A stretch of 64,000 nucleotides of DNA from Hygrophila difformis (Eukaryota; Streptophyta; Magnoliopsida; Lamiales; Acanthaceae), in contig JAOANR010000003.1 of the NCBI GenBank assembly GCA_030278955.1, forward strand, positions 20,111,050-20,175,049, given 5' to 3'. Positions 4,695-62,663 of this stretch are shown here, one piece after another. Every line of letters begins with the position of its first letter. Position 1 is the first letter of the stretch. A program made the position numbers and the translations under genes. The notes beneath the pieces were generated by a model. The model saw only the letters and a program-made list of their open reading frames with translations. It was not told the DNA's origin and ran no database searches.

Positions 4695-4702
4695 ACTATG
4701 CT

Positions 4703-5270: not shown

Positions 5271-5280
5271 AAAATGACAT

Positions 5281-5420: not shown

Positions 5421-5564
5421 AAAATGACATTTTTTTAAATTTGGCTCAATTAACATTTAAGAAACTCCTTTCAAAGCATTGCAATCGCACCTGCATTCTT
5501 TACCTGCTTTTTTCTTTTTTTTTTTTTTAAAAAAAGAAACTCATTAGGAACTCTCGCAATTCAG

Positions 5565-10974: not shown

Positions 10975-11228
10975 GGCTTCAATTAAAATCAAAATAAGCT
11001 ATAAAAGTCAAATTTTGACTTTTCAGGTAAGGATTACTTTGAAAATTTAATTTCGATGATAAATACAAAAATATGTCTCTCTAAACTAATTAAAAAAATA
11101 AAAATAAAATACAATAATTACATTAATTATAAAAACAAAATAATTAAATTACGAATTACATAATCAACTTAAACTTATAAATAAAGAAAATAAATATTTT
11201 TAATATGTTTTCGGATTTTTAAAATATA
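10975..11228. other. AT-rich spacer
   Basis: No gene, repeat or RNA feature was recognised. Confidence 0.5.
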
Positions 11229-11488
11229 CTTCCTCTGTTTTTTGTTTGCTACGGACCCACCCAACACGCAGTCCAATGTATATTTTAAATCACTAATAAC
11301 TCAAATTCGGTACAAGTGAAAATTCTAAAAATTTGATATTTAAAAACTATACGACGAGACGAATCTAACAAAATCTCACTTAGCTATATTTTAACTTGTA
11401 TAACTAATATGATAAAACTTCAAGTTAAAGTGTTTGTGTGAATAGTGTCCAATTTATAAACGTAACTATTTTTAAAAAATAGAGGAAG
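11229..11488. mobile_element. MITE, 'GACGAATCTAAC' family, copy 2
   Basis: It begins CTTCCTCTGTTTT and ends AGAGGAAG, with TA on both sides. The core has CGGACCCACCC, CTAATAACTCAAATTCGG and GACGAATCTAACAAAATC. About 260 bp, the same size as copies 1 and 3, and non-coding. Confidence 0.75.
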
Positions 11489-12678: not shown

Positions 12679-12683
12679 ATTTA

Positions 12684-13087
12684 TGTTAACCCAACGAATA
12701 AGTGAGGCCCATTATGCAGGGGTCAAGTAGATGTACCTCATTACCAGCCCAGTCCATATTGCAGAAGCGGGAATTAGAGTTATCGAGTTCAAATTTGTTG
12801 ACTGTCAGCTGAAGTCCTAGAATGTGGCGACGTGGAGAGAACAAGAGAAGCATGGAAGCAACTTATAAGTTCCAGACGGCTTCCTAGAGGAAGGGGACAT
12901 CAACTTCTCCAAGAGAAACTGCATTTCATATTTTTAAGCTTTCTGTATTTCGTTCCTTTTCATTCTGCAGTTCATTTATTTACAGCTTTCCTGTATTTCC
13001 TTCATGTAATCCGCAATTCTTGTAATTCCTTTCAAAGTTCATCAATCAAAAGAGGTTCCTCATCCTCTGCAAATTTCGTGGTTACCA
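12684..13087 (+). repeat. Tat element 5' LTR
   Basis: 404 bp, TGTTAACC...GGTTACCA. It matches 34917-35321 nearly base for base, with scattered substitutions. Its ends are fixed by the ATTTA duplication and the primer site. Confidence 0.9.
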
Positions 13088-14834: not shown

Positions 14835-16473
14835 TGCTAGCTCGTCGCAAAGCTGCAAAATAAATATTAATCCTACGCCACAATAACACAAATAAATGTA
14901 ATATATGGTGAGTAGGGTCGTCTCCCAAGGGATGCACACAAAGATTTAATAAATTGATTATTTATAATATATATAGATATAAAGAGGGGGGGATTTTTCA
15001 ATATCAACTAATCCTAATAAAAAGAAATAAAATCAGTCTAAACTAATAATGCAAGACAAAATTCCAAACTTCCAATAATCAAAGTATCTAGCTTGGGCAT
15101 GGATTTTCATTTGGGACATATGAATCGATCATCAACCAAAAACAATATTCATTCATTCAATGAATAAATTGGTTATAATTGCTCAACACGCGTTCACAAT
15201 CAACTTTTCCCTACTTTATCGTTAGCCAAAGTACGACCATTAGCTAATTCCCTAATTAAACGAGAACCCTAGGTACGACCATAGGATTTACAAGTTCAAT
15301 AGCATTACACACAAGAAAAGCCCAATTCAATATAACAAAATTCCTACGACGACATGTTTAATATTGATTCCAATTTCCCCTAGAGGTTTCTCCTCTAGTT
15401 TACTACTCAAATCGAATTTCAACACAATTACGGATGAAGAAACTCAATATAGCAATGAATTCACAAATTAACATGTGGCCAAAAATATTAATTCAAGAAT
15501 TCTAACATTTCAACATAGAGAAATAAGAAATACCCATAACAAATGAACATTCAAATTAAACCAAATCAAAATTTCACAATTCAGTATCCCAAAATTAATT
15601 CAATCCCAAACTAGACAAAACAATCTACTCACAACTCATTATAACTCCAACAAAATATGAAAGTTTCAACATCTCAAATTAATCCAAGGTTTTGAACAAG
15701 AATTCACCAAACTAGAACTGAAGTATTATCCAAACCACTGCCAGTGGAATGCAGCTGTGATGTCTCCAATCAGCCCCAAAAGTCGCCGCCCCTATGTTCC
15801 CAAAAACGTTGATACCGCTGCCCAGGAATTAATTGGTGCTGTCCTTCCCAGATGCGGCTGCTGTTTGGTGAAATTAGTGGTGGTGGATTGGTTGAAAATA
15901 TGTGAGGGATGAAAGGAATTGGAGTGCGGAGCTGTGTGTATGAGTGACTGGAAGGAGTATGAAAATCTGGACTGCTCTGGTGTCTGAAATCTGTCTGTCT
16001 GTGCCTGGAATCTGGTGACCTCCAATAGCAGCCCTCAATCCAATTTTATAGATGCCAAATTTGGGTAGCCTCTTCTCCATCGTGCTCTTCCCACTCTCAT
16101 CCAAGATCGGGTCTTCAAACATCGTGTTTTGATCTCTTCAATCTGCAGCAAACGTGCTTCCTCCTCTCCAAGTAATGAATTTTTAGATCCCCTTTGCAAT
16201 TGGGTAAGAAAATATGCTCAGGCTTTTAATTTCACCCCCAATGATCTTTTTGCAATTTGAGGCACTTTTAGACGGGCTCCACAGCTGCGAACCAGACCTT
16301 ACGCGTGGGCATGCCTAACACTTGAAAATGGGCTGTCCAAGCATGAAAATGCACCTTCTCTACAAATTCACACATTTCACAAAATTAGTCAAATTCAAGC
16401 CATTTTTACCACAATGCACAAAATTGTAGAGTTGAAATATGTAGAAAATATCCATAAAATATAGCATATATCA
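14835..16473 (-). repeat. Athila-like element 3' LTR
   Basis: 1,639 bp from TGCTAGCTCG to ATATATCA. It lies next to the polypurine tract, so it is the 3' LTR in element orientation. It contains a GCGTGGGCATGCC motif (near 16302) related to the repeats at 18281-18556. Confidence 0.9.
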
Positions 16474-16485
16474 ACTCCCCCACAC
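16474..16485 (-). other. Athila-like element polypurine tract
   Basis: The plus strand reads ACTCCCCCACAC, so the element strand is GTGTGGGGGAGT, directly against the LTR. It primes plus-strand DNA synthesis. Confidence 0.7.
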
Positions 16486-18280
16486 ATAATCCATGCTTGT
16501 CCTCAAGCATATATCAAAACCAAATCAAAAGTGCATGCCAAACCAAGTATCATTCAACAATGTCAAAGTTTCATCAAAATCAAGGTATGCAAAGCCAACT
16601 ATCCTCACAAAATGGGAAAATATATAAAGAGATCACTCACCCTCAAGTGTTTAGGCTAGATTTCGCTCAATACGCATAGAGAACTATCAATCTCAAAGGC
16701 TTGCTATCAAATCACAGGAAATTCACATCTCAAATAAGAATATGATGCTTATAATCAAAGGGTCTTTATTAGGGTTGTAACGGGGCTAAGGTTGGGGTAG
16801 GAAATATGGAATTTGTAGGTTAAAAGGAATTGAGGAAATTGTCTAACCATAAAAAATGCTACGAAACATATGTTGCACAAATTCTCTTTGACATCAATGA
16901 TTATGCTGCTCTCAAGATAAAGAATTACAACTTGCAGCTATAACACAAACATGTCTGCCTCTCTCTTTTTCTTTTTATTTTTTTTCTTTTTTTTGGTGGC
17001 TTTCAATAGCTTGGTATGTTTATTAGAGGAATTCCATTGTCTGAAAATTGCAGACAGAACTTCAACTCTTTGTTCATAACACTCCGGTCAGAGGAACACG
17101 TTCCAAGCTACTTATTTCCACTGCCCTGATATTTTTTTTCATAGGGCTTTTCTTTTCTTTTCTTTTCTTTTTTTTAGAGAGAGGCAGTACAATTACAAAA
17201 GCTCAATCAACTAACATCAAGTGCAAACTCTAAACAAAATCACATGTAATGGTGTTTAAACAAATTTCCTCATGTTCCTAGGGTTCAAATGAGTGTATGG
17301 CCATAATCAAAGAAAAAGGTCTCATAGGCTAAGGGTTAAACATGAACCAAAAAATGGATATATCATCAATAGGCTCAACTTGGTTCACTAGGGGATAAGC
17401 ATGGGTCAAGGGGAAAAACAAACAAGGCCAAAATGGGGTAATCCTAGTGCCCTTATCATTTTATTTGCATCAAGATTCAAAAATGAGAGTAGAATCAACT
17501 ATGTATAATCAAGCAAGTTCTAGAAAATCAAGTCTCATGCGTTACACACAACAAAAAATTTGAGCAAATATGTGATGTGTATTTTTTTTTTCTTTTTCTT
17601 GCTCAAAGAGGCTCAAATAGCTCACTTAGGGTTAAATGATAGAAAACTAAACATACCTCTCAATTAATTTGACTAAAAGCATGGAAAACTCTACAAAAGT
17701 CAAGCAATGCACATAAGAACTTGGCAAGATAAACGCAAGAGGACAAGCTAGGAAGTTCAAAAATTCATGTAAGCATAACCTAAAACCTCCCCCACACCTA
17801 AATCATGCAATGTCCCTATTGCAAAATAAAGATGAAAATTAAGCGAGGGAGAAAGGAAACTCCCCTGGATTAAGTGTGCCTGACCAAATGTCCCTAATGC
17901 CATCTTTTCAAAACCTGCTGTTGAAACTTGCCCTTTGCACCTCGGGCGTTTGAAATGCCTTTCAAGGTGGAAACAATGTGGAACCTTTTGAGAGGTGGTG
18001 CATTGGTTTTCATCCTCCCCTTGTTAGTCCAAAATTGGGGAACCCTATTAGCTCTTGATGGACGACGACCGAGAGGGGGAAGGGTACAGTGGCGCTGGCT
18101 GGTTGGTGGTGGCGAGTGGCGGCTGGGCGAGCAGGAGGGAGAGCAATGAGGCAGAGGGTGGTGGAGCGAAGCAAGAGGGCTTGGAGAGAGAGATGAAGGA
18201 GTAGGCGGAGGGAGTAGGGTTTGTGTTGTGTTTATGAAACCAAATTTGCCCTATGTGCAATTGATTGGCAAAAGAAATTC
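16486..18280 (-). other. Long non-coding 3' region of Athila-like element
   Basis: No RT, RNase H, integrase or envelope-like sequence was seen in any frame. Several poly-T/poly-C-rich tracts occur (16970-16995, 17120-17175, 17580-17600). Short ORFs such as those at 17928 and 18048 show no domain. Athila elements often have a large 3' region, but here pol is also missing. Confidence 0.6.
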
Positions 18281-18556
18281 CAGCCTTAGGTGTGCCCATG
18301 CCTAAAGAGTATTTTTGAGCTGTCCAAGTCTCTTTCCTTCCTCAAATCTCCAGTCCATTTTGCTTCCTTGGGCGTGCCCACGCATAAGGCATTAATTTGG
18401 ACTGCTGGACCTCCGTCCTTTCCATATGTTTCCCAGTCTAAATCCTGTTCTTGGGTGTGCCCACGCCTAGGGCTAATAATCTATCTGTCAATTCCACATG
18501 TTCTCCTCTTCAATCCAGTCTGATTTTAGCCCTTAAGCATGCCCACGCTCAACATC
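18281..18556 (-). repeat. Four diverged ~85-bp tandem units with GTGCCCACGC motif
   Basis: Motif hits are GGTGTGCCCATGCCTAA (about 18285), GGGCGTGCCCACGCATAAGG (about 18369), GGGTGTGCCCACGCCTAGG (about 18454) and AAGCATGCCCACGCTCAAC (about 18535). They are spaced about 82-87 bp apart. Each centre is near-palindromic (GCGTG..CCACGC). A related inverted motif sits in both LTRs. Confidence 0.65.
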
Positions 18557-18750
18557 AAATTTTGGTCTGCAATCCCAAAGGTTCCTGAAATCAACAAACA
18601 AGACCCAAAATCAAGGAAAACTTTATTAGACTCGAACTGAGACTCAAAAATTCAACTAAACTAATGAATTTGAAATAAAATGCTTGGGTTACCTCCCAAG
18701 AAGCGCCTTTCTTTTACGTCTTTGGCTAGACAGAACTTTGAATTTCCAAC

Positions 18751-21591
18751 TTAAAACTTTCTCCCTTGTGATTTCTTAGAGTCATAAACTCCACATTTTT
18801 TCTTCTCAAAACCTTTGTAATATGGCTTAAGTTGGAAGCCATTTACAATCAACTTGCCCTTGGTGGAACTTCCGGTTGCTATCTCATCAAATGAATCAGT
18901 ATTAGTTAAAGCAAATGAACAAATCCCACAAAAACAACACTTGCCTCGATCAAATAATGAATAAGATCCACAGAATTTTCTACCATTTCCTTTTGGTGGA
19001 TCTTCTTTGTAATCTATGGCATTCCCTTGCATCTCATTCCTCAGTTCCTGCACATTTTGGTTAAGAACAACATCCATACTATACACAAAGTTAGATTCCA
19101 CATGATTTACATTCTCAAAAATATTGAACTCAACCTTCTCACCATCAAATTCCATAGTCAATGTCCCATTCTCCACATCGATTTTTGTTCTTGCAGTATA
19201 CATAAATGGCCTACCAAGTATGATAGGTGAAGGATTTCGACATTTTTCATCATTCATATCTACCACATAGAAATCAACAGGAAAAATTAAGTCATTTACT
19301 TGCACTAGGACATCTTCCACCATGCCTTCAGGATATGCATTTGTCCTATCAGCTAGTTGAATGATTATTCCAGTTTCTTTCAATGGCCCAATATTCAGTG
19401 AATTATATACTTCCTCCGTTTTTATTTGTTTGCTACGGACCCACATTGCACGCAGTCCAATGCACATTTTAAACCGTTAATAACTCAAGTTCGGTACAAG
19501 TAAAAATTCTATAAGTTCCATATTTAAAAACTGCATGACGAGACGAATCTAACAAGATCCCACTTGACTATATTTTAACTTATATAACTATGAGAAAAAT
19601 TGAAATCAAAGTAGTTCAATAAATAGTAGCAAAACTTCTAATGTAGCTAACAATAAAAAACGGAGGAAGTATAAATTTTGGCATGACATTTATCGTTGCT
19701 CCTAAATCTAACATGGCCTTTTCAATATCCATCTTACCTATCTTACATGGCACTGCAAACATACCAGGATCTCCAAATTTTTGAGGTAATTTGCGTTGAA
19801 GGACTGCTGAAACACTCTCCCCAGCTAAGATCTTCTCATCTCCTCGCAGACGTTTCTTCTTGGTACATAAATCTTTTAAGAACTTGGCATAGTGAGGTAC
19901 ATGCTTTATTGCATCAAGTAGAGGGATGCTCAAATCCACTTTCTTGAATATTTCCATCATCTCTTTGTCCTTGTCCCCTTTTTTCGGTTTCGCCAACCTG
20001 TGAGGAAAAGGGGCCGGGTTAGAATATGATTGAACTGGAGAATTCAAAACTACCTTAGATGAGTTCTTCGCTTCTTCTTCTATTTCTTTTTCAAGCTCTT
20101 CATCGGCTTTATCCTTAGAATTGATAACCCTTGGACCTTCCAACTCCTTGCCACTTCTCAAGGTTATGGCACTAACATTGCATGGGTTCATGCTAGTTTG
20201 CGCAGGTAGCTTCCCTTTCTCGCGCTCTTTAGACTCTCGAAGTTCCGCCATGACTTGAGCCATTTGATTCTCCAGGTTCTTTACACTCGCCCTAGTTTCC
20301 TGCTGGAATTGCAACACACTTGAAGCAATAGATTTAACCATATCTTGTAAGGAATTACCTGGAGCAGGGGCGTGAGGTGGCTGCTGTTGTTGTTGAGGCT
20401 GTGAATTGGGTTGGAAACCAGGTGGCGGTTGCTGTGGATAGCTAACTTGCTGATTTCCATACCTCAGATACGGGTGATCACGCCATCCCGGATTGTACGT
20501 GTTGGAATATGGATCATAGGGCCTCCTAGGAACGAAACCAACAGCATTGACATCTACTTCCTCCATCAGCGTGGGGCATGCATCAGTAGGGTGCTCGGTG
20601 TTGGACAAGATGCCACACGCCTTAACCTGTGCATTTCCTATAGCAAGTTTTCGAACAAAAGAGGTTAGCTCAGTTAGTTGCTGCTGTAATGAATTTACCT
20701 CAATGGCTTCTTTCACTGCCACAGTCTCTCGTGGCCCAAATTGTTGAGAATTCATGGCCATATCATTCAACGGTTGCCATGCCTCTGCTGGAGTTTTGTT
20801 CATCAGTGCACCACCACTCGCAGCATTTATGATCATCCTATCCATAGCAGTTAGCCCTTCATAAAAATACTAGATTAGTAATTGTTGAGAGATTTGGTGT
20901 TGAGGACACATAGTAATGAGTTTATTAAATCTATCCCAATATTCATATAAAGACTCCCCTGTTGCTTGCTTGATTCCACATATTTCTTTTCGCAAGTTGG
21001 CAGCTCGAGATGCAGGAAAATACTTCTCCAGGAATCTGCACTTCATGTCATTCCACGTGGTAATACTCCCTGCTGGAAGGTTGAAGAGCCAGTCCTTTGC
21101 AGCACCCTTCAGTGAAAATGGGAAAGCCCTCAGCTTGATCTGGTCTTCAGTGACATTTGGTGGTTTCATGCTTGTGCAAACCACATCAAACTCTGCAGGT
21201 GTTTGTGTGGTTCTTCTCCTGACAAACCATGAAAATCAGGCAACAGATGAATTAGTCCAGTTTTTAGCACAAAATCAGTATTATTAGCTACAGTAGGGAA
21301 TGTGATACACAAAGGCTGTTGAGCCAAATCAGGAGCTGCTAGCTCCGTTAATGTCCTTTGTTGAGCCATTTGTGTCTGAGGAATATCAACCGTGTCCTCT
21401 AACTCCTTGTTATCCTCAGAATCCGACGAGCTAGAATCCTCAGCAATTTGGACTGCCAAGCTAATCAGTGGTGATAGCACGACTGCTTTTTCTGCTCTCC
21501 TTAGCTCCCTAGCTTCCTTCCTTAAACGACGTGCAGTCTTTTCAATTTCAGGATCAAAATTTTGTTCAGCACCACGTTCTGTTCGAGGCAT
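18751..21591 (-). pseudogene. Athila-like gag plus aspartic protease, MITE-interrupted
   Basis: It starts MPRTERGAEQNFDPEIEK at 21591. A basic/acidic N-terminus is followed by a retrotrans_gag core (LRAFPFSLKGAAKDWLF, FLEKYFPASRAANLRKEI). A frame change lies near 21170-21185, and an in-frame TAG near 20868 sits just before YFYEGL. Next is a glutamine/proline-rich stretch (20400-20470). The retropepsin region carries DLGATINVMPKFI (about 19672-19710), and after the MITE (19410-19669) continues NSLNIGPLKETG and IILGRPFMYTARTKIDVENG. The catalytic triplet reads DLG, as in other Athila-type elements. No pol follows. Inferred: this copy is inactive even as a gag donor. Confidence 0.82.
19410..19669. 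mobile_element. MITE, 'GACGAATCTAAC' family, copy 3, inside the protease
   Basis: CTTCCTCCGTTTTT...AACGGAGGAAG, with TA at 19408-19409 and 19670-19671. It splits the protease between VMPKFI and NSLNIG. It is the cleanest copy of the family in the window and is good for defining the ends. Confidence 0.85.
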
Positions 21592-21675
21592 AAACTAGTA
21601 AATAGAAGCAAACAATAATATATATAATAAAATAGAAAAAATAAAATAACCAAAGTATCCAAATCCTTAATGGCG

Positions 21676-21693
21676 TCCCCGGCAACGGCGCCA
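21676..21693 (-). other. Athila-like element primer-binding site (tRNA-Asp type)
   Basis: The minus strand reads TGGCGCCGTTGCCGGGGA, the classical primer site of Athila and some Tat elements, complementary to the 3' end of tRNA-Asp. It lies five bases inside the LTR. Confidence 0.88.
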
Positions 21694-21698
21694 AAAAT

Positions 21699-23337
21699 TG
21701 CTAGCTCGTCGCAAAGCTGCAAAATAAATATTAATCATACGCCACAATAACACAAATAAATGTAATATATGGTGAGTAGGGTCGTCTCCCAAGGGATGCA
21801 CACAAAGATTTAATAAATTGATTATTTATAATATATATATAGATATAAAGAGGGGGGGATTTTTCAATATCAACTAATCCTAATAAAAAGAAATAAAATC
21901 AATCTAAACTAATAATGCAAGACAAAATTCCAAACTTCCAATAATCAAAGTATCTAGCTTGGGCATGGATTTTCATTTGGGACATATGAATCGATCATCA
22001 ACCAAAAACAATGTTCATTCATTCAATGAATAAATTGGTTATAATTGCTCAACACGCGTTCACAATCAACTTTTCCATACTTTATCGTTAGCCAAGGTAC
22101 GACCATTAGCTAATTCCCTAATTAAACGAGAACCCTAGGTACGACCATAGGATTTACAAGTTCAATAGCATTACACACAAGAAAAGTCCAATTCAATATA
22201 ACAAAATTCCTACGACGACATGTTCAATATTGATTCCAATTTCCCCTAGAGGTTTCTCCTCTAGTTTACTACTCAAATCAAATTTCAACACAATTACGGA
22301 TGAAGAAACTCAATATAGCAATGAATTCACAAATTAACATGTGGCCACAAATATTAATTCAAGATTCTAACCTTTCAACATAGAGAAATTAGAAATACCC
22401 ATAACAAATGAACATTCAAATTAAACCAAATCAAAGTTTCACAATTCAATATCCCAAAATTAATTCAATCCCAAACTAGACAAAACAATCTACTCACAAC
22501 TCATTATAACTCCAACAAAATATGAAAGTTTCAACATCTCAAATTAATCCAAGGTTTTGAACAAGAATTCACCAAACTAGAACTGAAGTAATGTCCAAAC
22601 CACTGCCAGTGGAATGCAGCTGTGATGTCTCCAATCAGCCCCAAAAGTCGCCGCCCCTTTGTTCCCAAAAACGTTGATACCGCTGCCCAGGAATTAATTG
22701 GTGCTGTCCTTCCCAGATGCGGCCGCTGTTTGGTGAAATTAGTGGTGGTGGATTGTTTGAAAATATGTGAGGGATGAAAGGAATTGGAGTGCGGAGCTGT
22801 GTGTATGAGTGACTGGAAGGAGTATGAAAATCTGGACTGCTCTGGTGTCTAAAATCTGTCTGTCTGTGCCTGGAATTTGGTGACCTCCAATAGCAGCCCT
22901 CAATCCAATTTTATAGATGCCAAATTTGGGTAGCCTCTTCTCCATCGTGCTCTTCCCACTCTCCTCCAAGATCGGGTCTTCAAACATCGTGTTTTGATCT
23001 CTTCAATCTGCAGCAACGTGCTTCCTCCTCTCCAAGTAATGAATTTTTAGATCCCCTTTGCAATTGGGTAAGAAAATATGCTCAGGCTTTTAATTTCACC
23101 CCCAAGGATCTTTTTGCAATTTGAGGCACTTTTAGACGGGCTCCACAGCTGCGAACCAGACCTTACGCGTGGGCACGCCTAACACTTGAAAATGGGCTGT
23201 CCAAGCATGAAAATGCACCTTCTCTACAAATTCACACATTTCACAAAATTAGTCAAATTCAAGCCATTTTTACCACAATCCACAAAATTGTAGAGTTGAA
23301 ATATGTAGAAAATATCCATAAAATATAGCATATATCA
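21699..23337 (-). repeat. Athila-like element 5' LTR
   Basis: 1,639 bp, with the same ends as 14835-16473. By eye they differ by scattered substitutions and one-base indels (for example ATTAATC(C/A)TACG near the start). Confidence 0.9.
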
Positions 23338-25372: not shown

Positions 25373-26290
25373 TATGAGGGGTTCCTTGCTTACTGCAAGA
25401 CCTTGGATGAGTCCGAGCAGGCAAAGTCGCAGCCTGAGGTCCAACCTACCAACGAGGCCGCACAAGTGAGCTTTGGTGCAGTTACTCCCAAGAAAGTAGA
25501 AGCCGCCATGGAAGGCAACCTAGAGGAGCCTAAGGTTGGGATTGGTGCCTTAGGTATCATTTCTGATGATACTAGCGTGTTGGATAGTATGGATCTTGAT
25601 GAAGATGCTAATATGGATACTTTCTGGGACGACCTTGAAAATGAGCTCAAGGACGCAGGCTATGGGTATGGACAAGAGGATGAGCCAGCAGACCCTGCTG
25701 TGTCCATGCAAGTTGTGGGATTGGCAGCAGATGAAGAGATCAGTGATGTTGAGTCTGAAATATGGGATGAGGAAGAGCCGGCAAATAAGATTGATTGAAG
25801 AGATAGATGAAATGATAGCAGAGCTGTCTCACCCAACCAGATGTCTCCTTGAAGAGTTAGGTGGCCAGTCTGCTCAAAAGCCAGCTCTCGCACAATTTTC
25901 CAAGCCAAAGGTGGCTCAAACAAGACAGTTGAAACCCTTGTATGTCAAGGCCCACATTGATGGACATCCCTTCAACAGAGTGTTTGTTGACAATGGGGCA
26001 GCGGTAAATGTGATGCCGATGTCAACTCTGAAGAAGCTTGGAAAAAGTGAGAGGGATCTGATCCCTACCAGGGTCAGGATGTGTAGCTTTGTTGGAGAAG
26101 CGACTCAACCTGCAGGGTTCATAACGGCGGATGTTACTGTGGGGTCTAGAACTATCAAAGTAGCCTTCTTTGTGGTGAAATCAAAGATCTGTTACTCAGC
26201 GTTGCTAGGACGTGATTGGATCATATGGCAGAGTGTATGCCATCCACCTTACACCAACAACTACTCATCTGGGATGGTGACCACATAGAG
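25373..26290 (+). pseudogene. Tat gag C-terminus and aspartic protease
   Basis: After the MITE, the frame gives an acidic linker (DLDEDANMDTFWDDLENEL) and a stop near 25796. It then gives a retropepsin domain: PLYVKAHIDGHPFNRVFVDN with GAAVNVMP, and LLGRDWI near 26205. The active-site region reads VDNGAAVN, where most retropepsins have D-S/T-G, so Asn replaces the usual Ser/Thr; DNGA is known in Tat proteases. A frame change separates it from the linker. Confidence 0.8.
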
Positions 26291-26484
26291 TTGGTGGAGG
26301 CAGACCCTCAACACTTCATATGGCCAGACATCAACAGTGATGAGGCCATCTTCTATTTAGAGGATATTCAGCCTGCGTCAACTCTGATTGGTGTTGATGT
26401 GGACTTGGAGTCCATCGACTTTACTTCCAGCGGCTTCAAGCTACATCCAGCGGACAGCCGACAAGAGGCGTCAAGTTTCTCATC

Positions 26485-27520
26485 ATGAGCACTCAGGACA
26501 TCTACAAAGACTTGTTACAGCGGCTTGCCACCACTGAGATGATGATGGGTGCCGAAGACAAGTCCAAGAATCTGATTGATAGCCGGCCATCCGAGTGGCC
26601 ATCTCATGTGAAGCGGACATTGCCTAGTCCGGAGGCTAAGGAACCACTTGTGGACATCAATCTCAAGACAGATGCAGAGCTGAAGCTGACCAAGATAAGT
26701 GCATCTCTGCCTGAGGAAGAGCGGCACCAACTCGTGGAGCTGATTCCGAAATATAAAGATTGTTTCGCGTGGCAGTACATGGACATGCCAGGGCTTTCAA
26801 GGGAACTCGTGAAACATAAGCTACCAACTCACCCAGAGTTCAGACCTCACAAACAGCCACATAGACGGTTTGATCCAGACACCATTCCAAAAATAAAGAC
26901 TGAGATCGAGAAGCTTCTTAGAGCAGGTTACATTAGAACTTGTCGTTATGTAGAATGGCTTGCAAACATTGTACCTGCTGTAAAGAAGAATGGTCAATTG
27001 AGAGTCTGTATAGACTATAGGAACTTAAACTTGGCGACACCCAATGATGAATATGTAATGCCTATGGCCAATATGCTTATTGATGCGGCGGCCGGACACA
27101 AATTTTTATCGTTAATAGATGGTTATTCTGGATACAACGTTTCGTTGCCCAGGGCTAGTTGGCATCTTCGAGTGGGTAGTCATACCCTTTGGCTTGAAGA
27201 GTACTGGGGCAACGTACCAAAGAGCCATAAACGTGATCTTTCATGATTTAATTGGCCATATAGTTGAAGTTTACATTGATGACATCGTCATCAAGTCATG
27301 TGAATTTGGCCAGCACTTAGTCCACCTTGAAGAAGCTTTAATCCGGATGAGGCATCATGGATTAAAAATTAACCCAGCTAAGTGTGCTTTTGGAGTGGCG
27401 GTTGGGAATTTCTTAGGCTTCCTGGTACATCAGTGGGGCATTGAGGTTGATCAGAATAAGGCTAAGGCTATCTTAGAAGCTCGTGCACCGTCTAATCTCA
27501 GGAGCTACAATCATTATTAG
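26485..27520 (+). pseudogene. Tat reverse transcriptase, frameshifted
   Basis: The RT copied element RNA into DNA. Recognisable blocks are HKLPTHPEFRPHKQPHRRF, KIKTEIEKLLRAGYIR, VPAVKKNGQLRVCIDYRNLN, FLSLIDGYSGYN, then (after a frame break near 27130-27170) PFGLKSTGATYQRA and the catalytic box VYIDDIVIKS. The YIDD variant replaces YVDD. The thumb (GLKINPAKCAFGV..FLGFLV) is present. The frame breaks again near 27510. Confidence 0.85.
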
Positions 27521-28110
27521 GCAAGATCAATTTCTTAAGGAGGTTCATTCCCAATGCTGCAGGAATGATGAAAGCGTTCACTACCTTGCTTAAAGGAAGG
27601 GAGAATGAGACGTTTCTTTGGACGGCTGAGCATCAAGCGACCTTTGAAGAAATTAAGAGAGTATCGGCCAATCCTCCAGTGTTTGTGCCACACAGACCTG
27701 GAGTACCATTGAAGCTGTACGTATCAGCCGCCGAAGAATCCATCGGTTGTTTGCTTGCACAAGATGATGAGAGCGGTAAAGAAAGGGCCATCTACTACCT
27801 GAGCAAGACTCTACAAGGACCGGAGGTCAGATACACAGCTTTAGAAAAACTGTGCTATGCGCTGGTGTATTCTTGCAATAAGCTAGAGCACTACATGTTG
27901 GCAAGGAGGGTCCATGTGGTAGCTCTATTCGACTTGGTCAGGAGACTGTTAAATGGACTGGCTATGAAGGGCCGCCAAGCTACGTGGGCTATGAAGATTA
28001 GTCCTTTCGCTCTGGTACACGTCCCTCAGAAAGCGGTCAAGGGACAGGCCTTAGCTGATTTCTTGGCTCAACATCCTTCGTTAACGTTGCCAGAAGATCC
28101 TGGAGAAGCA
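27521..28110 (+). pseudogene. Tat RNase H (first, retroviral-type)
   Basis: A connection segment (INFLRRFIPNAAGMMKAF) leads to RNase H: PLKLYVSAAEESIGCLLAQD, AIYYLSKTLQGPEVRYTALEK, then PQKAVKGQALADFLAQHPSL. The second catalytic acidic position lies in the YTALEK helix. The usual YVS start lacks a DAS-type aspartate (VSAAEESIG), as in the degenerate first RNase H of Tat elements. The domain is open from 27565 on. Confidence 0.8.
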
Positions 28111-28540
28111 GTATTCATATGGTTTGAGTCTTGGGAATTAAATTTTGATGGGTTTGCACAAGCAGCGGTTCGGGAGCCGGTATTACATTACTAATCCTCT
28201 TGGGGAACATTGGAAACTGGCTCCGGAGTTGGAGCCTGGCACGACCAACAACCAAGCTGAGTATGAGGCCTTGATATTTGGCCTGGAGACAACATTGATG
28301 AAGGGTGCAAAATCCATTGTAATTTTTGGAGATTCCCAAGTCATCTTGAAGCAGCTAACAGGACAATATGAGTGCAAGAGTCCGAGGCTGATTAAATGCT
28401 ATGAGACAGCACTAGAGTTATTGGGAAATTTTCGGATGCTACGATCACTCATGTGCCTAGAGGCTAAAATCAAGAAGCCAACGAGGCTGCTCAACTTGCT
28501 TCAGGCTGGCAGACTGGTCGCCCTAGGGGGGCACCACACA
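28111..28540 (+). pseudogene. Tat second RNase H (archaeal-type, aRH)
   Basis: WELNFDGFAQ begins a second RNase H with the catalytic D. A frameshift near 28170 moves on to GSRYYITNPLGEHWKLAPEL, NNQAEYEALIFGLETTLMKG and IFGDSQVILKQLTGQYECKS. These carry the remaining acidic residues (the E of AEYEAL, the D of GDSQ). The doubled RNase H is the main reason for assigning the Tat lineage. Confidence 0.82.
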
Positions 28541-28689
28541 TTGTTTTCATCACGAATAAGTCTGAAGACTAAGAAGAAATCCAGCTTCAAAACCCAGTTG
28601 GTGATTGGATGACAGAGATTATACAATACCTTAAGAACCCATCATCCGGAGAAGATAGCTCAATGAAGGTAAAAGTCTTATGATATACT

Positions 28690-29849
28690 TTGGTTGATGG
28701 CGAGTTGTTTCGAAGGGCGCTAGACGGATTACTACTCAAGTGTATAGGTCCCGAGGATGCTAAGCTGGTGATGGGAGAAGTCCATAAAGGAATATGCGGC
28801 TCTCATCCGGTGGGGCCTAGCATGAGATGGAGTATCCACTGCCACAGATACTTTTGGCCAACCATCATGGAAGATTGTATTACTTATGCTCTTGGCTGTG
28901 AGGCTTGCCAGAAGCACGACCTAATTTAAAGGGTGCCGGCGGAAGAGTTGCACATAGTAGTCAAGCTTTGGCCATTCCAGGGCTGGGGGATGAACATCAT
29001 TGGGAAGATTCATCCGCATTCATCTAAGAACCATGCGTTCATACTTGTGGCCACTAATTACTTTACCAAGTGGGTAGAAGCATGACCAATGAAGAAGATC
29101 AATCAAAACGATGTAATTAAGTTTGTGACTGAGCTGATACATCGATTTGGAATCCCTCAAACAATCATTGCCGATTGTTCACAGGTGAAAGGTTTATGGC
29201 TTTTGCTAAACAATTTGGGATTCGCATCTATCACTCTACTCCATACTACCCCCAAGCAAATGGTCAAGCTGAGGCCACTAACAAGATCTTGATAAGCCTG
29301 ATCAAAAAGGCAGTTGGAGAGAAGCCAAGAAAGTGGCATGAGGCCTTATCAGAGGTCCTATGGGCTTACAGAAATTCTAAGTCTACAGCCACTGGTTTCA
29401 CACCATACTACCTGACGTATGGTCATGATGTCGTTCTACCTCTGGAAATCACGGTTCCTTCACTAAGGGTGGTCCAGCAGCATCACTTAGACTTAACTAA
29501 GTATGAGGAGGCCATGTTACAAGAGTCAGAAACGACGGATGGTGACAGGCTTGTGGCCTTGGAAAATATTCGGCATCATAAAACTAAAACTGCAAAGTAT
29601 TATGACAAGAGGGTCCGAGGCAAGACTTTCAATGAAGGGGATCTAGTGTGGAAGGTGATTTTACCTTCAGGAGTGCGTGATAACGAGACTGGGAAGTGGT
29701 CTCCAAATTGGGAGGGACTTATTGTCACCCAGAGGTTACTAAATGGTGCATACAAATTGATGGATATTGATGCACAAGAACATAAGCAGAGTATAAATGC
29801 AAAATATCTCAAAATGTACCATCCATTAGTTTGGGAATTGGAGTAGGAA
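28690..29849 (+). pseudogene. Tat integrase, frameshifted
   Basis: The HHCC zinc domain region lies at 28770-28925 (MGEVHKGICGSHP, CEACQKHD). The DDE core starts with WGMNIIGKIH (the first D appears replaced by N). It continues ATNYFTKWVEA, a stop at 29083-29085, IHRFGIPQTIIAD (second D), a frame break near 29180, and YYPQANGQAEATNK (E). A C-terminal SH3-like region ends WELE at 29846. At least two stops or frameshifts make it inactive. Confidence 0.82.
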
Positions 29850-30013: not shown

Positions 30014-31023
30014 CTACTGGGAAGGAGGCAGCGCCCCATCACCAAGTATGCGACGACGCATGGCGGTCCACTGGTCACGTGTGCGCCCAAGGATGTCTGT
30101 CGTACGAAGAGCAGTAGCAGCGGCTCGGGCACGAGCATCTGCCCGAGGCCGACGAGCCTTCGACAGCTCAGCTGATAAGTCACGATCATCTGCGGCTAAG
30201 CAATCATGGGTGGTCTGCAAAGCAGTAGCCTGCATGGACGTCTCGGTTAACCTAGGCTCAACAGAGGTAAGCCTGTCTTTGGCCCCCTGAATAGTACGTC
30301 GCCTGTCTGCGATAACACGCTTTGCCTTCGCAATGTCGCGCTCTGCCTGTGCAATAGTACCCATCAGTTGTGACTTTGACTCTCTTGAGCTGCACGATTA
30401 GTAGATAACTGCTCACGCTGAAGATGATTTGCCTCTAACCGTGAGAGAGTCTCACGATGTCGCGCCTCAAGATCGTCAACAAGTGTCAAATCCTGGGCGG
30501 ACTGGTCTGCAGTACTCCTATAAATGGGATAGAAAAGGGAAAAATCCGAGATGAGCTCTGAAAAGTTCTGGAAGCCGGAATCTTCAACAAAGAGATAAAG
30601 ACCGAACTGATGTCACTACGCAAACCATCGAGACCGAAGACCATCTCGGCGGAAAGTGGACCGGTCTGGGCAGAAAGAATGCGATCAAACGCCTCACATG
30701 TCGAAGTGATGTCGCTGCCAATGGGACTGCGAATGCTCGAATCCAATATAGGAGAGGTCACGAGACCTGCAGTATGAACCAGGGGTACCTAAAAGCAAGC
30801 TTGTGTTAGTATTGTTTCATGGAGATCTCACAATACCTAAGACGAGATTAAACAATACTTGAGGATTTAGAGGGCGTTCAACCAAGCCAGCCGAAGGAGC
30901 AGAAATGTTGCCTACTGAGGGCGATAATTGATCTGCGGGGGCCTAAAAAAATGGTCCTTAGTATGTATTCTTGAGCAAAATGAAATAAAAAAAAGGGAGA
31001 AAGAATATGTGACTAAAAAGTAC

Positions 31024-31268
31024 CTGAGAGACCAACGCGGGGCCAGTCGGGCTAACGGTAGATGTGTGATCTGCAGCCTGGGAAGGAGGTGGACGGTCTA
31101 CTTGATCCGCATGGGTCTGGAAGAAAAGGTCTTGAGGCCATGTTCTTAGAAAAAATGGAAGTGGAAAAAGGTATAATTAAGGAATACCTGAGAGACCGGC
31201 TCGAGACTAACTGAGCTAACCATGGAAACATGACTGTCAACCTGAGAAGGGGATGGATCCACTTGAAC
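31024..31268 (-). repeat. Duplicated in-phase mini-exons of the antisense gene
   Basis: Exon 31188-31268 (81 bp, 27 codons) and exon 31024-31116 (93 bp, 31 codons) both have PPSQ/PSPSQ-type starts and both end in ...PVSQ or ALVSQ at a CTCTCAG|GTA donor. A third, 30859-30942 (84 bp, 28 codons), begins ADQLSPSVG. All are phase 0 at both ends, so loss or gain of one keeps the frame. Introns are 70-80 bp. Confidence 0.7.
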
Positions 31269-32015
31269 CTGGAAGTAAAAGAAAGGTGTCAATACCTTAT
31301 CAAGAAGAAAGTGAATCTACAAACTCAAAACAGCAAGACATACCTGTGAGGGATCCTCAGCGGCGGTCTCTACAGCACTAGTTCGATATTTGGGATCATC
31401 GTCGCCATGATTGAAGATGTAGTCAGCGCGAGCCTGCAGCTCGTCAGGCGTAGAGGCGGGATCATCAGGGGGCCTACCCAAAGAAGAGGAGTGAGGGTCA
31501 ATAGCCACATGATCGTCGGCGTCATCCATAGGATCCTCTTCCTCGCCTAAAACTGCGGACTCCTCCTCATCACAGTCTTCATTGCCATCAGTGGCAACAT
31601 CCTCAGTCTCTCCATCCTGAACCAAAGAACCCCAAATACTACCGGCGGGCGTCCCGCGAGATCTGGGAGATGGATCTGTAAGAAAGAAAAGAGAGGTGTT
31701 AGACAACAAGGGAAGAAGTTATGAGAACCCGTATGAAATGATTCGAAAGCATACCTCTATGGCGCTTGCGGGATAAAGGAGGCGCAGTAGACTTCGGGGC
31801 AACACTGCGAGAAGCTGGTATAGGAGCCGACCAGATAGCGGCACCACGAGCACTAGAGCCGAGTCAGGTTGCAGGGGAACTAGAGGCTGAATTGAAGGCT
31901 GCCGCAAGGAAGCTGAGCTGCACACGGGACCGGGAGCTCGCTGTGAAGGTGGAACTCCGAAGCGCTCTACAAGACTATTCTCAGACGGCAAGAGAGAGGT
32001 GATGTACGGCATCCA

Positions 32016-33491
32016 CTAGGCCATAAATTCAGCAACAAGCGTTCCTGATGGAGTGAATGTCAGATAAGTCGAATTTGGCTGGCGAATCAACAACACAAGT
32101 ACAGCCTGGATATCTGTGTCAGTCAGCCTCGTGTCCCTATCAAGGGGAGCTGGCCACTCCACTCCACAAGGGAGGCCAAGTCGACAGCCGAACTGGTGAG
32201 CTAGTAGGTGAGGGCAGTATTGCTCAATAGTGAGTGGATTGGACTTGTCATTTTGCCGAATACCACTCAAAAGCATGTTCGGCTTCATGCAGACTTTCCA
32301 CGTATCCTCACCGAAAGAGCCGTCTGGCTCAGAAGGCGAGCATATGAGCCCAGCTAACAACGCATCCCGTCGGGCGTAGGCAAACAAACCAGTGCGGTCG
32401 GCCTGTAGCCGAGGAACCAACGAATAATTTGTAAGCCATCTTTTTCTAGAAGCTTGCCTTGACAAATCTCCACAGACTCAGTAGCTAGATAAGTGCCCAA
32501 CGGGGTGTTTTTCCTACAATCTCTCGGGCTAGGGCGGAACACGCCACGAAACAGGCGTGGGAAGTACAGCTGGATCCAAAGCTGTAAAAACCACAAGGGC
32601 CCTGAAGCTTTGTTGGTGGGGTCTGTCCCGCTAGCCAACAAATCAGCAACCTTGGACATACCGCCAAACAAAGTAGCAAGAAAATATGAACCAATCCCCA
32701 AAGTCTCCTCGTCGCTGTCCATAATAGCCTGAACAAGGGGCAGAGCGGTGCGTAGCACAGTCCCGGCAGTGGAATAGATAATGAATCGGCTGAACCACAT
32801 CAAAAGGAAGGTGACATGCTCATTGCCTGTAGGAGGCCCATTCGGCCTATTGTGGTCATTGAAGACCGAATACTGCTTGGTCGTTTTACCCGCAGGGCAA
32901 ATCGCGTCACCAAGATGAAGGTCATCCACACCAATGGAATGTGTCAAATTCGAACCAACAACAAGGAGGCCTGTGATCATCGCAACATCTAGGATAGTGG
33001 GTCCCACAAAACCACAAGGGAGCTGGAAGCATTGACTGAGGAGTTCCAGAAGCCCATGAGGTAGTAGAGCAAGCGATGGTCTAGTGCAATGGTCTGGGTG
33101 GACAAAAGAATAGCATCTGTGATCCCCTATCTATCCCAATCGTCAGAACGTGCTCTCCACATCCTGTGGGCCAGTCGATATACCTCTTTGTGCTGTTTTT
33201 ATCCTTACTACTTTTTTCGTTGCCATTCTTAGTCCGCGGAATCGTAACCTTGGGCTTGAAGACTGTTTTAGAGTTGCCCGACTGCTGAGACCGAATGATC
33301 TTCGTATGGGAAATGAAGGCCTTAGTGAATGCGGCCTGAGTGATCGGACACGTGCAAGACAAAAATTCACGGGCACCATCTGCATGCTCGCCCGTGCGGT
33401 AGAAAGGGCGCAGAACAGGTACCGATTCCTCACGAGTAAACTCACAGGCTTCGTCGTCAGAAGCAGGGAGTCCCTCCACATCCGGTATCAT
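32016..33491 (-). pseudogene. PMD core exon of the antisense gene
   Basis: From MIPDVEGLPASDDEACEF the exon passes CPITQAAFTKAFISHTKII, then a frame change near 33007-33085 (between FCPPRPLH and HGLLELLSQCFQLPCGFVG), GPTILDVAMITGLLVVGSN, GSYFLATLFGGMSKVADLLA, LWFLQLWIQLYFPRLF, a frame change near 32440, and IEQYCPHLLAHQFG. It ends in FMA, with a stop at 32016-32018. Hydrophobic helices with conserved Trp and Phe fit the PMD family. No catalytic residues are known for this family. Confidence 0.72.
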
Positions 33492-33571
33492 TAAACAGAA
33501 GTATAAGAGGCGATTACGAAGGGATCAATCAAATCAAACAGAGTCAAACAGCCAAGAGAAGCAACGCAAAC

Positions 33572-34105
33572 CTAAGAAGCCGTGATGCGAGAAGCAGTGA
33601 AGCGAGGCATGCGAATGGCCCGGCCAGGCTGGGTCGCAGCTGAAGCCTGAGCAGCGGCTTTCAGTTGAAGCACGACGACTGGCACCTCACTTGTGGTGTC
33701 TGATGGGCCTCTTGTGGCGTCTGGCATGCCCTGAGGTTGTGAAGTGATGGCTGGTATGGTTGAGTTCGCCAAATCCTATGTCACCAAAGATTGCAAAATG
33801 TGGTTGAGGAGACGCCAGCCAACAGAACAATCAAAATGAACAAATAGAGCCAGGGATGTAATCAAACCTTGAAATCCGTGGCGCGCGCGAGATGACAAAG
33901 CAGCAAAGCCAGATAAGCCCGTGGCCACTGAAGGCTGCAAAGTGGCGGCTGAGGAGGGCAGTGTGGCGGCTGGCACTCCCTTGGTGGCGGCTGAGTCTCG
34001 CAACGAGGGTCGAGGTTCGTTCGATGCAAGAGCTACGCCTGAGGACTGCTCAATGGCGACATGAGACTGCGAAGTGGCGTTGGGTGTGGATGAGTTCGAC
34101 AAGTC
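33572..34105 (-). repeat. Duplicated N-terminal exon modules (DL(S/A)NS type)
   Basis: Two consecutive exons both start at a CATAG|GA acceptor with the peptide DLSNSSTPNATSQ or DLANSTIPAITSQ and continue as Ala/Thr/Ser-rich sequence. The introns after and between them are similar (CAAACCT donors on the plus strand). One is 204 bp, the other 238 bp (one base out of frame). This points to exon-intron tandem duplication. Confidence 0.65.
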
Positions 34106-34189
34106 CTATGTCATCAGACAATGATATTAGATATGTTTGAAAGGATACAGACCAACGAACAAGTAAAATAAGCAAGATACAAACCTGTG

Positions 34190-34700
34190 ACGCCATAATA
34201 AGTACAAGTGGCGGCTGGAGAGGGGATAATGGCGGCTTGCAAGGGCTGGATGGCGGCTGAGAGACTCCTAGTGGCGGCTTGAGCAAGGCGGATGGCGACC
34301 CTAGCACGAGTAGTGGCGGCCTGGAACAAAATGAGTGGCGGCCCGGAGTGATGCTAGTGGCAGCTGGGAGATTTCGATTGGCGAATGCTCCAGGAAAATT
34401 CAATGGCGGTCAAGGCAATAGGGATGGCGGCTGGAGCCCTCCTGATGGCGGCTGGGGACGCTGAGAAGATCGTGAGTGGCGGCCGAGGACTCCTCAATGG
34501 CGGCTGGTGGCTTCGTGGTGGCGGCTTAGACTGAAGTTGGCGGAACACGATCACGACAACCTGGGCACACGCGGACGGCGGCCAGGATAGTAAGAGTAGC
34601 GGCCTGACGTGCGCAGACGGCGGCCAGGGAAGTCCTGATGACGGCTGGTGATGCTACAGTGGCGGAAGGGTTGATTCCGGCGGCTGGTTGCCGGCGTTCG
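34190..34700 (-). repeat. ~30-bp GGCGGCTG minisatellite in the antisense first exon
   Basis: The plus strand has more than a dozen GTGGCGGC / ATGGCGGC motifs at irregular spacing of about 25-33 bp. In the antisense frame they give PPL or AAT repeats (for example PPLGVSQPPSSPCKPPLSP). It is the most GC-rich tract of the element. Confidence 0.75.
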
Positions 34701-34811
34701 AACGACGTCCGACGTTTAGCGATGTTCAGCTACGTACGTTCAGCGATGGTAGAGGAAAAGAGAGGAAGATTAAAAAAATAATAATAATAAGCAAATTTTT
34801 GTCCTCTAGTG

Positions 34812-34826
34812 AACTTGGTGGCTTTT
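34812..34826 (-). promoter_or_regulatory. Candidate TATA box for the antisense gene
   Basis: The plus strand GGCTTTTTATAAAG gives CTTTATAAAAAGCC on the minus strand, between the right LTR and the first antisense exon. It is about 70-90 bp upstream of the earliest exon sequence. The distance suits a pol II start, but no transcript evidence exists here. Confidence 0.4.
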
Positions 34827-34900
34827 TATAAAGACCTAAATAGGCCATGCCTATGTTAAACACGCAGATTCGTCTTAGGAAACCCTAAACAGACAAAATT

Positions 34901-34912
34901 GCGCGAGGGGGG
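34901..34912 (+). other. Tat element polypurine tract
   Basis: GCGCGAGGGGGG lies four bases before the right LTR, in the place of the plus-strand primer. Confidence 0.6.
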
Positions 34913-34916: not shown

Positions 34917-35321
34917 TGGTAACCCAACGAATAAGTGATGCCCATTATGCAGTGGCCCAAGTAGATGTACCTCATTACCAGCCCAGTCCATATTGCAGAA
35001 GCGAGAATTAGAGTTATCGAGTTCAAATTTGTTGACTGCCAGTTGAAGTCCTAGAATGTGGCGACGTGGGGAAAACAAGAGAAGCCTGGAAGCAACTTAT
35101 AAGTTCCAGACGGCTTCCTAGAGGAAGGGGACCTCAACTTCTCCAAGAGAAATTGCATTTCATATTTTTAAGCTTTCTATATTTTGTTCATTTTTATTCT
35201 GCAGATCATTTATTTACAGCTTTCATGTATTTCCTTTCTGTAATCCGCAATTCTTGTAATTCATTTCAAAGTTCATCAATCAAAAGAGGTTCTTCCTCCT
35301 CTGCAAATTTCGTGATTAACA
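34917..35321 (+). repeat. Tat element 3' LTR
   Basis: 405 bp, TGGTAACC...GATTAACA, matching 12684-13087 with scattered differences. It is followed directly by the TSD ATTTA. Confidence 0.9.
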
Positions 35322-35326
35322 ATTTA

Positions 35327-35801: not shown

Positions 35802-36567
35802 TTAGTTTCTGTTGAGGAGTTCTTCGATCATCTGCAGTGCGATCCTTTCCTCGTCCTTCATTCCATTCCTTGCGGTTTCGTTTGGCAGCGGCGGTGCCAC
35901 CGTGACCTCCGCCGTCTGCGGTTCACTATCGTCATTGTCCAAAGTTGGATTTTGATGGCTGGTCTTTTTCTTCCCCAATTCGACGGTCATGACCCACCTG
36001 CTCGAATCGGATCGCGACCCGGCCCGTTTCTGCCAGACACCAATGTGCGAATTCTCGGTGTCCAATCTCAGGCAGGTCATCGACGGCGACGGCGACTTGG
36101 TGCATTTCCGAAGCTTGGCGCTGAGGATCGACGACAGGGAAGCCGCCGCCGATGAGGGAGAGGAAACGTCATCACCACCGCCGCCATTGTCATGAGGCGC
36201 CGGAATCGGGAAATTCGTCTTGGCATTACGGCCGCTCATCAGGACCGCCGCCTCGTCGTACGCCCGCGCCGCCGCCTCCGCCGTCTCGAACGTTCCCAAC
36301 CACACCCGCCTTTTCCTGCCAAACAATCATCAATTGAATGAATTCACTACAAAATTCGATGAAAAATGCCAATTAGGGTTTGATCTCAAATTCCCCCGAA
36401 ATTGATACTCCATTTGCACATAATACAAATACAAACATAAATTACAAAAAATAATCAAAAAGAAAAATGTAGCAACAGAACACATACAAGAGAGGATGAC
36501 GAATCTCGGACACCCAGGAGCCCCAATGGCGCTGTCTGACCCCTCTGAACTTCTTACTTTGTACCAT
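35802..36567 (-). CDS. SHN: SHINE/WIN1-type AP2/ERF transcription factor
   Basis: There are two exons: 36488-36567 and 35802-36315, with a GT...AG intron 36316-36487. The spliced protein is 197 aa (the Arabidopsis SHN clade is about 190-200). It begins [27 protein letters not shown] and continues [20 protein letters not shown]. Together these are an almost complete AP2/ERF domain at residues about 6-63, including the YRG- and RAYD-type elements. The middle motif ([20 protein letters not shown] and [13 protein letters not shown]) and the C-terminal MIEELLNRN are diagnostic of SHN/WIN1 (ERF group V). Known: SHN/WIN1 factors activate cutin and wax genes in epidermis. The intron at the L-K junction inside the AP2 domain is the SHN position. 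The gene appears intact. Confidence 0.93.
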
Positions 36568-45990: not shown

Positions 45991-46015
45991 TAACTGGACC
46001 CATTTTTTATGTATA

Positions 46016-46265
46016 CTCTCTCCATTTTAAAAAACTTGCTTCAGACCCACAGTGCACGTATTCATTGCATATTTTAAACTGTTAATAACTCAAGTTCGAT
46101 GCAAGTAAAAATCTTAAAGTTCGATTTTTAAAAATTGTACGACGAGACGAATCTAACAAGATCCACTTAGCTATATTTTAACTTGTATAATTATGATAAA
46201 AATTGAAATCAAAGTATGTGTGAACATTTTAAAAATCCCAATTGTTGCAACAAAAAAGGAGGAAG
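46016..46265. mobile_element. MITE, 'GACGAATCTAAC' family, copy 4
   Basis: CTCTCTCCATTTT...AAAAAAGGAGGAAG flanked by TA. The core has GACCCACAGTGCACG and GACGAATCTAACAAGATCC. Confidence 0.75.
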
Positions 46266-50215: not shown

Positions 50216-50244
50216 AAGGGTAGGTTTTTCTCATAATATTATTT

Positions 50245-54432: not shown

Positions 54433-54588
54433 TATATAGTAGAATGTAAGAGAGACAAACATCAGACCACCCTCAAGAAGAGCCAGAGGAGTCAAAATAG
54501 ACAAATTATTGGTTGATAAAAAGTTCATTTCTCTTGATTAGAGGATTGCAAATTGCATTCTATGGTTGTTAGTGAGACTAACATACTA

Positions 54589-55408: not shown

Positions 55409-55475
<67 letters not shown>

Positions 55476-62603: not shown

Positions 62604-62663
<60 letters not shown>

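Follow-up and report, generated by a model that had tools for sequence, protein, structure and literature searches.

How could an element that is copied through RNA carry a gene rich in introns? The question is raised by a window of 64,000 nucleotides (the whole stretch of DNA analysed) from Hygrophila difformis (Acanthaceae; NCBI GenBank assembly GCA_030278955.1, contig JAOANR010000003.1, positions 20,111,050 to 20,175,049), in which an initial annotation had linked at least nine exons on the strand opposite to pol, inside a Tat retrotransposon with long terminal repeats (LTRs), and had read them as a gene for a Plant Mobile Domain (PMD) protein. Comparison with sister copies in the same genome indicates that this antisense gene is very probably real: an accessory gene belonging to a Ty3/gypsy element of the Tat lineage, present here in a decayed copy. 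The copy in the window is itself dead, a pseudogene, because the acceptor of exon 4 is lost and the reading frames are broken. Spliced expression of the antisense gene is predicted with good, slightly lower confidence, and the same confidence applies to the gene and its spliced expression taken jointly.

Exon plan, splice sites and selection

Nine minus-strand exons were placed by eye between pol and the 3' LTR and checked on sister alignments (Table 1). They lie where the initial annotation had put them, and the splice dinucleotides are the expected GT or AG at 15 of 16 sites, the missing one being the acceptor of exon 4. The introns are 70-92 nt long; intron 4 (31755 to 31675) is in phase 1 and makes the join RKRHR|D just as had been described, and the other introns are in phase 0 by the model. 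Frameshifts and stops interrupt exons 4 and 9. The start of exon 1 is less certain than the remaining exons, and a similarly tiny first exon is found in L052, a copy from a distant subfamily. Taken over all copies compared, the predicted plan shown by the alignments comprises eight to nine or more exons with short GT-AG introns between pol and the 3' LTR, and the predicted product runs from an Ala/Ser/Thr/Pro-rich N-terminus through the PMD, a basic patch, an acidic block and short variable cassettes to a coiled-coil-like tail. Similarity between exon units, tested for 13 pairs, supports a putative exon duplication for exons 6 and 7 (z 7.6) and weakly supports one for exons 1 and 2 (z 5.3) and for exons 2 and 3 (z 3.7), and the remaining 10 of the 13 pairs, including 1/3, 6/8 and 7/8, gave z values of 1.7 or less.

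The genome (915 Mb in 246 contigs) was searched with exon 5, which gave at least 62 matches (the best 40 of 83 candidates scored), and with exons 6-9, which gave at least 47 matches (the best 40 of 336 candidates scored). The resulting splice alignment has 38 rows, composed of 29 loci (L010-L038), L004, L005 and seven young copies; as L004/L014 and L029/L034 proved to be the same places and were merged, the rows represent 36 distinct places, which together with the window fall into 20 clusters at 90% identity. The initial annotation had proposed to look for the antisense gene in intact Tat copies; across the 36 sister places, introns 4-8 keep the donor GT in 152 of 156 cells and the acceptor AG in 137 of 147. 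By comparison, GT and AG dinucleotides at non-splice positions of the same alignment, which have the same row kinship as the splice sites, are kept in 767 of 1731 (44%) and 1002 of 1870 (54%) cells, respectively (p 7e-45 for GT and 1e-24 for AG, values that overstate the difference because the rows are related). When each 90% cluster is represented by a single row (19 rows), the counts are 79/81 for GT and 67/74 for AG; site by site among these representatives, the splice GTs are conserved at 0.93-1.0, and a value of 0.85 is reached at 8 of the 56 other GT sites.

One subfamily is young (L039, L040, L041 and L043-L046, with 96-99% mutual identity; its counts do not include L042 and L047, which overlap and belong to a single rearranged place). 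The exon-4 acceptor is present in all seven young copies, as well as in L048 and L051, and the sites of introns 4-8 are kept in the young copies with a single exception (intron 7 of L046). Exon 4 is uninterrupted in four of the seven, and exons 4-9 are all open in three (L039, L044 and L045). By eye, the young subfamily seemingly has more 5' phase-0 exon cassettes (L045 1-2240) than the window copy and L052, and a stretch between its 5' exons (L045 720-1140) is filled with short tandem repeats like GGCTCACTT.

The PMD assignment rests on profile scores. PF10536 matches the window exon 4 with E 1.8e-14 and 54.1 bits, against a Pfam gathering cut-off of 34.9, and matches L045 (E 6e-26, 91.8 bits) and L052 (E 1.9e-32, 113.3 bits) over the full length of the domain (profile 1-346 of 347). 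All three scores exceed the cut-off and place the predicted proteins in the PMD family, which disposes of the objection that the PMD likeness might amount to chance-level helices. In the NCBIfam scan neither the PMD piece nor the acidic one had a match, and the tail had weak SMC-type coiled-coil matches far below the cut-off; the 258-codon PMD piece, compared with a set of 5.8 billion proteins that seemingly lacks plants, yielded 990 candidates, none at E 1e-3; and the PDB sequence search returned no match for the window piece and three chance-level matches (E 0.32-0.34) for exon 4 of L045.

A PMD profile search of the genome gave at least 146 matches (the best 117 of 3305 candidates scored), among which 33 places share an L052-type match (profile 1-346), 32 of them without a stop in the match, in a best-scored list that favours intact copies. 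One of these places, L052, was read. Its predicted gene has eight exons and an uninterrupted frame of 3141 nt (1046 codons, no internal stop), with introns of 390, 86, 78, 74, 75, 70 and 69 nt, all seven of them GT-AG, and the integrase lies on the strand opposite to the PMD gene. The phase plan is the same as that of the window gene: exon 4 ends in a basic RKRRR, followed by the phase-1 intron, an exon with 41% D+E, two short cassettes and a long tail. The basic patch and the acidic block of the initial annotation are present in both subfamilies. Coiled-coil family matches to the exon 9 homologue of L045 are every one below cut-off, and the heptad pattern of the L052 tail beats most shuffles (5 of 200 reach it).

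Substitution patterns argue for selection on the predicted frame. For these analyses L045 was the reference in the retained rows, compared with L024 and L021. Between L045 and the window copy, exon 4 (554 codons) has nonsynonymous and synonymous distances (dN and dS) of 0.224 and 1.166, a ratio of 0.19, and exon 9 has a ratio of 0.28. In the wrong antisense frames the ratio for exon 4 is 1.03 and 1.37, with 27 and 51 stop codons versus 2 in the predicted frame, and across the exons the wrong frames give 0.97-1.37. Similar values were obtained between L045 and a third subfamily (L024), with 0.22 over the stretch of exon 4 that both contain, 0.34 for exon 9 and 0.86-1.61 for the wrong antisense frames, and four pairs within the young subfamily gave 0.11-0.16 for exon 4. 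In addition, 20 of 45 distinct indels in exons are multiples of three, versus 8 of 54 in introns (p 0.0016; 19 rows, 18 places). The PMD exon and the tail thus appear clearly constrained at the protein level, and the linkers in exons 5-8 hardly so. Conserved splice sites and frame-specific purifying selection are both found, as expected of a spliced protein-coding gene. The initial annotation had taken phase consistency as the strongest sign of a real gene and not noise; for the family this is borne out by the sister splice sites and the low dN/dS, but the copy on which the claim was made is a pseudogene.

Several observations weigh against this interpretation. At the 5' end, exon 1 differs in L048 and L045, and the 5' end is therefore uncertain; for the 5' exons the splice-site comparison covers few copies (L048, L051 and L052), and the number of 5' cassettes seems variable. 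Exons 5-8 have dN/dS of 0.45-0.63 between subfamilies (0.45 for L045 against the window) and of 0.63-1.5 in the four young pairs, where changes are few, and the DNA identity of exons 5 and 8 (0.68) is below that of the introns (0.72-0.75). One mirror sense frame also has a low ratio (0.29 for exon 4), which is expected because third positions coincide, but it contains 30 stop codons. The acceptor is the weaker signal, since splice AGs are conserved at 0.76-1.0, one of them at 0.76, and 14 of the 61 AG sites outside the splice positions attain 0.85. The match at the antisense TATA box described below comes from five rows but only two subfamilies. Finally, we infer transcription, splicing, the transcription start site and nuclear entry from DNA comparisons, and what the PMD would do within the element is hypothetical.

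Host element and neighbouring loci

The element at 12684-35321 is a Ty3/gypsy LTR retrotransposon, with an LTR pair, a target site duplication (TSD; ATTTA, 5 bp, at 12679-12683 and 35322-35326) and the domain order gag, protease, reverse transcriptase (RT), RNase H (RH) and integrase (INT). Its assignment to the Tat clade, as the initial annotation had it, is indicated by the additional archaeal-type RNase H (aRH) of pol, which sits between RH and INT at 28142-28612; the match to NF041175 (E 9e-17) is under the cut-off of that model. An extra RNase H in this position has been given as a mark of Ogre and Retand elements within the Tat clade (PMC6317226). Of the RT region, 26398-27246 had no RT family match on its own and was assigned by eye, and 29133-29846 has weak integrase-like NCBIfam matches only. 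The LTRs are 93.4% identical (404 versus 405 bp), with a Kimura two-parameter (K2P) distance of 0.0647, or about 2.5 million years at 1.3e-8 substitutions per site per year, the rate given in PMC6123737. A second LTR element is nested within the gag region, flanked by CGATC repeats; its LTRs are 98.3% identical (K2P 0.0148), and the lower distance makes it younger than its host.

Without the nested insertion the host element measures about 14.1 kb. Its LTRs lie inside the range of the Retand sub-clade (315-1194 bp), as do the 5070 bp between the end of pol (29846) and the start of the 3' LTR (34917; Retand range 2933-6566 bp), and the internal region of about 13.3 kb is slightly above the Retand range of 7.4-12.9 kb. 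An antisense open reading frame (ORF) with Transposase_28 (PF04195) has been reported in 97% of Retand clusters (PMC11963269). A Pfam scan of eight antisense pieces, taking in matches with E values up to 1, did not return this domain, and a search of the source genome for it gave no match, but the controls gave none either.

Table 1. Positions in the window of the antisense gene and of the parts of its host element
Feature	Position	Strand	Remarks
Exon 1 (MASQ, four codons)	34185-34196	-	All 12 bases and the donor position shared with L051
Exon 2, Ala/Ser/Thr/Pro-rich	33868-34105	-	Acceptor common to L051 and L048; frame-breaking difference in window copy
Exon 3, like exon 2	33572-33775	-	Sites in L051 and L048; stop at end in window copy
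Exon 4, PMD core and basic patch RKRHR	31755-33482	-	PF10536 on 32354-33130
Exon 5, acidic block, phase-1 entry	31344-31675	-	Open in window; acceptor in 26/27, donor in 35/35 rows
Exon 6, 81 nt, phase 0-0	31188-31268	-	Acceptor in 26/26, donor in 33/33 rows
Exon 7, 93 nt, phase 0-0	31024-31116	-	Acceptor in 31/31, donor in 31/31 rows; unit like exon 6
Exon 8, 84 nt, phase 0-0	30859-30942	-	Acceptor in 30/35, donor in 33/35 rows
Exon 9, coiled-coil-like C-terminal tail and stop	30014-30788	-	Acceptor in 32/36 rows; frame broken in window copy
Antisense TATA box (candidate)	34824-34830	-	87 bp outside 3' LTR edge
5' LTR	12684-13087	+	404 bp; TG...CA ends
gag piece	13893-14426	+	PF03732 E 2.8e-7
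Nested LTR element	14835-23337		1.64-kb LTRs; TSD CGATC; within gag region of host element
Aspartic protease piece	25554-26288	+	PF13975 E 2.7e-7
Reverse transcriptase, two frames	26398-27520	+	PF00078 E 1.4e-16 on 27119-27520
RNase H of pol	27496-28194	+	PF17919 E 1.5e-21; PF17917 E 1.6e-18
Additional archaeal-type RNase H	28142-28612	+	NF041175 E 9e-17; PF13456 E 3.1e-12
Integrase region, pol end	28684-29846	+	PF17921 E 5.2e-7 on 28684-28929
3' LTR	34917-35321	+	405 bp; purine tract immediately upstream, about 34905-34912

Elsewhere in the window, a minus-strand frame at 35802-36326, which we take to be AP2/ERF-like, has its nearest end about 480 bp past the 3' LTR of the host element, and long plus-strand frames at 50224-54299 presumably represent a LINE-type endonuclease and reverse transcriptase with an RNase H-like end. 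A further LTR pair, 95% identical, occupies 54791-56805 and 62017-64000, the second LTR reaching the end of the window, with pol-like minus-strand frames between the two. A dispersed repeat of about 205 bp occurs in five places (4264-4468, 11224-11428, 19408-19612, 46012-46216 and 54587-54791), which are about 73-86% alike. Two other PMD families of the same genome (L054, 2128-4269, minus strand; L055, 1477-3459, plus strand, and 3999-5627, minus strand) have stops or introns inside the PMD match. The former adjoins a frame that we take to be OTU-like, and the latter presumably a transposase like that of Mutator-like elements (MULEs) together with an OTU-like protease frame. Captured PMDs have been described in MULEs of grasses and Amborella (PMC5418596).

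Expression, function and rival explanations

A candidate promoter lies next to the 3' LTR. The sequence TTATAAAAAG at the antisense TATA box is identical in the window and in four young copies (L039, L040, L043 and L044), and similarity fades within about 20 bases after it; in L052 a TATA box, CATATAAAAC, stands about 110 bases from the LTR edge and is followed by a CT-rich leader. We infer that this TATA box may serve as the promoter of the antisense gene, and an own promoter has been reported for the antisense gene of maize Grande (gene23; PMC7264820). In the mechanism that we propose, host RNA polymerase II would transcribe the antisense gene from the integrated copy, and only this antisense mRNA would be spliced, the genomic RNA being the other strand and lacking these splice signals. 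The introns would thus survive retrotransposition because the RNA that is reverse transcribed is the opposite strand, on which they are not introns. The same logic is exploited in retrotransposition reporters that carry an antisense intron. The protein would then enter the nucleus and act through its PMD on the element's chromatin or transcription, perhaps as a competitor or a mimic of those host PMD proteins that, like MAIN and MAIL1, work in silencing.

As for the purpose of such a protein, a counter-silencing role is a tentative suggestion, to which we give rather low credence, and we are equally doubtful of the fuller proposal, in which an antisense promoter belonging to the family itself drives a fully spliced gene, and the resulting PMD protein sabotages the MAIN/MAIL1 silencing complex or mimics it. 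A counter-silencing strategy has been suggested for PMDs of transposable elements (TEs) in a review (PMC8616336). The genome contains an apparently genic host PMD ORF, L053 (748 codons, PMD E 1.5e-100), to which the element PMD is 30% identical over 250 residues, and at this level direct mimicry of a host PMD is possible. If the proposal were true, one domain would be used on both sides of the silencing arms race, and the antisense orientation would let the element carry an intron-rich gene through its RNA life cycle.

Somewhat better placed, at a little under even chances, is the view that the PMD protein does not oppose host silencing but helps the element to target its integration, to handle RNA or to activate its transcription. 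A protein with a basic patch, an acidic block and a coiled coil could well be a chromatin or transcription factor, the Grande antisense protein is nuclear, and DNA binding is predicted for antisense proteins with Transposase_28 (PMC11963269, PMC7264820); however, the PMD relatives with a known phenotype are reported to act in silencing and gene expression (PMC5418596, PMC7156037).

It is improbable that the antisense RNA itself is the product, pairing with genomic RNA and regulating through double-stranded RNA (dsRNA) and small RNAs, with the frame incidental. As the antisense gene would lie entirely within the genomic RNA, dsRNA could form; dsRNA regulation has been proposed for antisense ORFs (aORFs) of this kind (PMC7264820), and PMD genes yield phased small interfering RNAs in tea (PMC10673657). 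Protein and RNA roles may coexist. An RNA-only role is nevertheless rejected, as dN/dS of 0.19 in the predicted frame versus 1.0-1.4 in the wrong ones, in-frame exon indels and conserved splice sites point to selection on a spliced protein.

Less probable still, and likewise rejected, is the recent capture (transduction) of a host PMD gene by one element lineage. L053 would offer a source in the same genome, but the element PMD is far closer across element subfamilies (54% protein identity between the PMD exons of L052 and L045) than to this host gene, the subfamilies share the intron plan, and the gene region falls into 20 clusters at 90% identity; capture from the host, if there was any, would be old. 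That splice-like motifs merely happen to line up on a strand of junk DNA has a negligible probability and is rejected on comparative evidence, for although consensus splice motifs are common and a template test on the single sequence is circular (10/10 sites only at its own place, next best 6/10), splice conservation in the sisters, the frame-specific dN/dS and the open spliced frame of L052 refute it.

Known systems and implications for Tat elements

Gypsy elements with a PMD have been described before, and so have Tat elements with antisense ORFs; no description of a spliced antisense PMD gene was found in the open-access literature searched. The PMD was found in 57% of the Ogre elements of one survey (PMC6317226), and the clades PMD-A1/A2 are described as Gypsy-borne (PMC5418596; Ikeda et al., 2017). 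These extra ORFs of plant Ty3/gypsy elements share the Pfam domain, the superfamily and the Tat lineage with the window gene (PMC6317226, PMC5418596), but the survey used single ORFs of at least 250 codons (PMC6317226), whereas the window gene is multi-exon. The aORFs of Retand, Grande and RIRE2, with Transposase_28, are likewise antisense between pol and the 3' LTR in elements with a large region there (PMC11963269, PMC7264820); in contrast, the window gene has a PMD, no Transposase_28 match in the pieces scanned and eight to nine exons. HBZ of the human retrovirus HTLV-1, a spliced antisense gene for a nuclear regulator, offers a comparison of how such a gene works (PMC2099442, PMC11963269), but there is no sequence relation, and the window gene has many exons and a PMD. 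Host MAIN/MAIL1 share the PMD with the element gene and silence TEs together with PP7L (PMC7156037, PMC5418596, PMC8616336); they are host genes, and the comparison extends to the PMD only, in which the element protein is 30% identical to one host PMD of this genome.

The study of antisense and spliced transcripts has been called for (PMC7264820). Because the surveys consulted call single open frames, a gene with seven or eight short introns would show only as fragments, and should the predicted splicing of the antisense gene hold, Tat elements would have a larger coding capacity than has been recognised. The role of element-encoded PMDs would become testable with one full protein, and the family would provide a clear case of an intron-rich gene in an element copied through RNA, owing to its place on the opposite strand.

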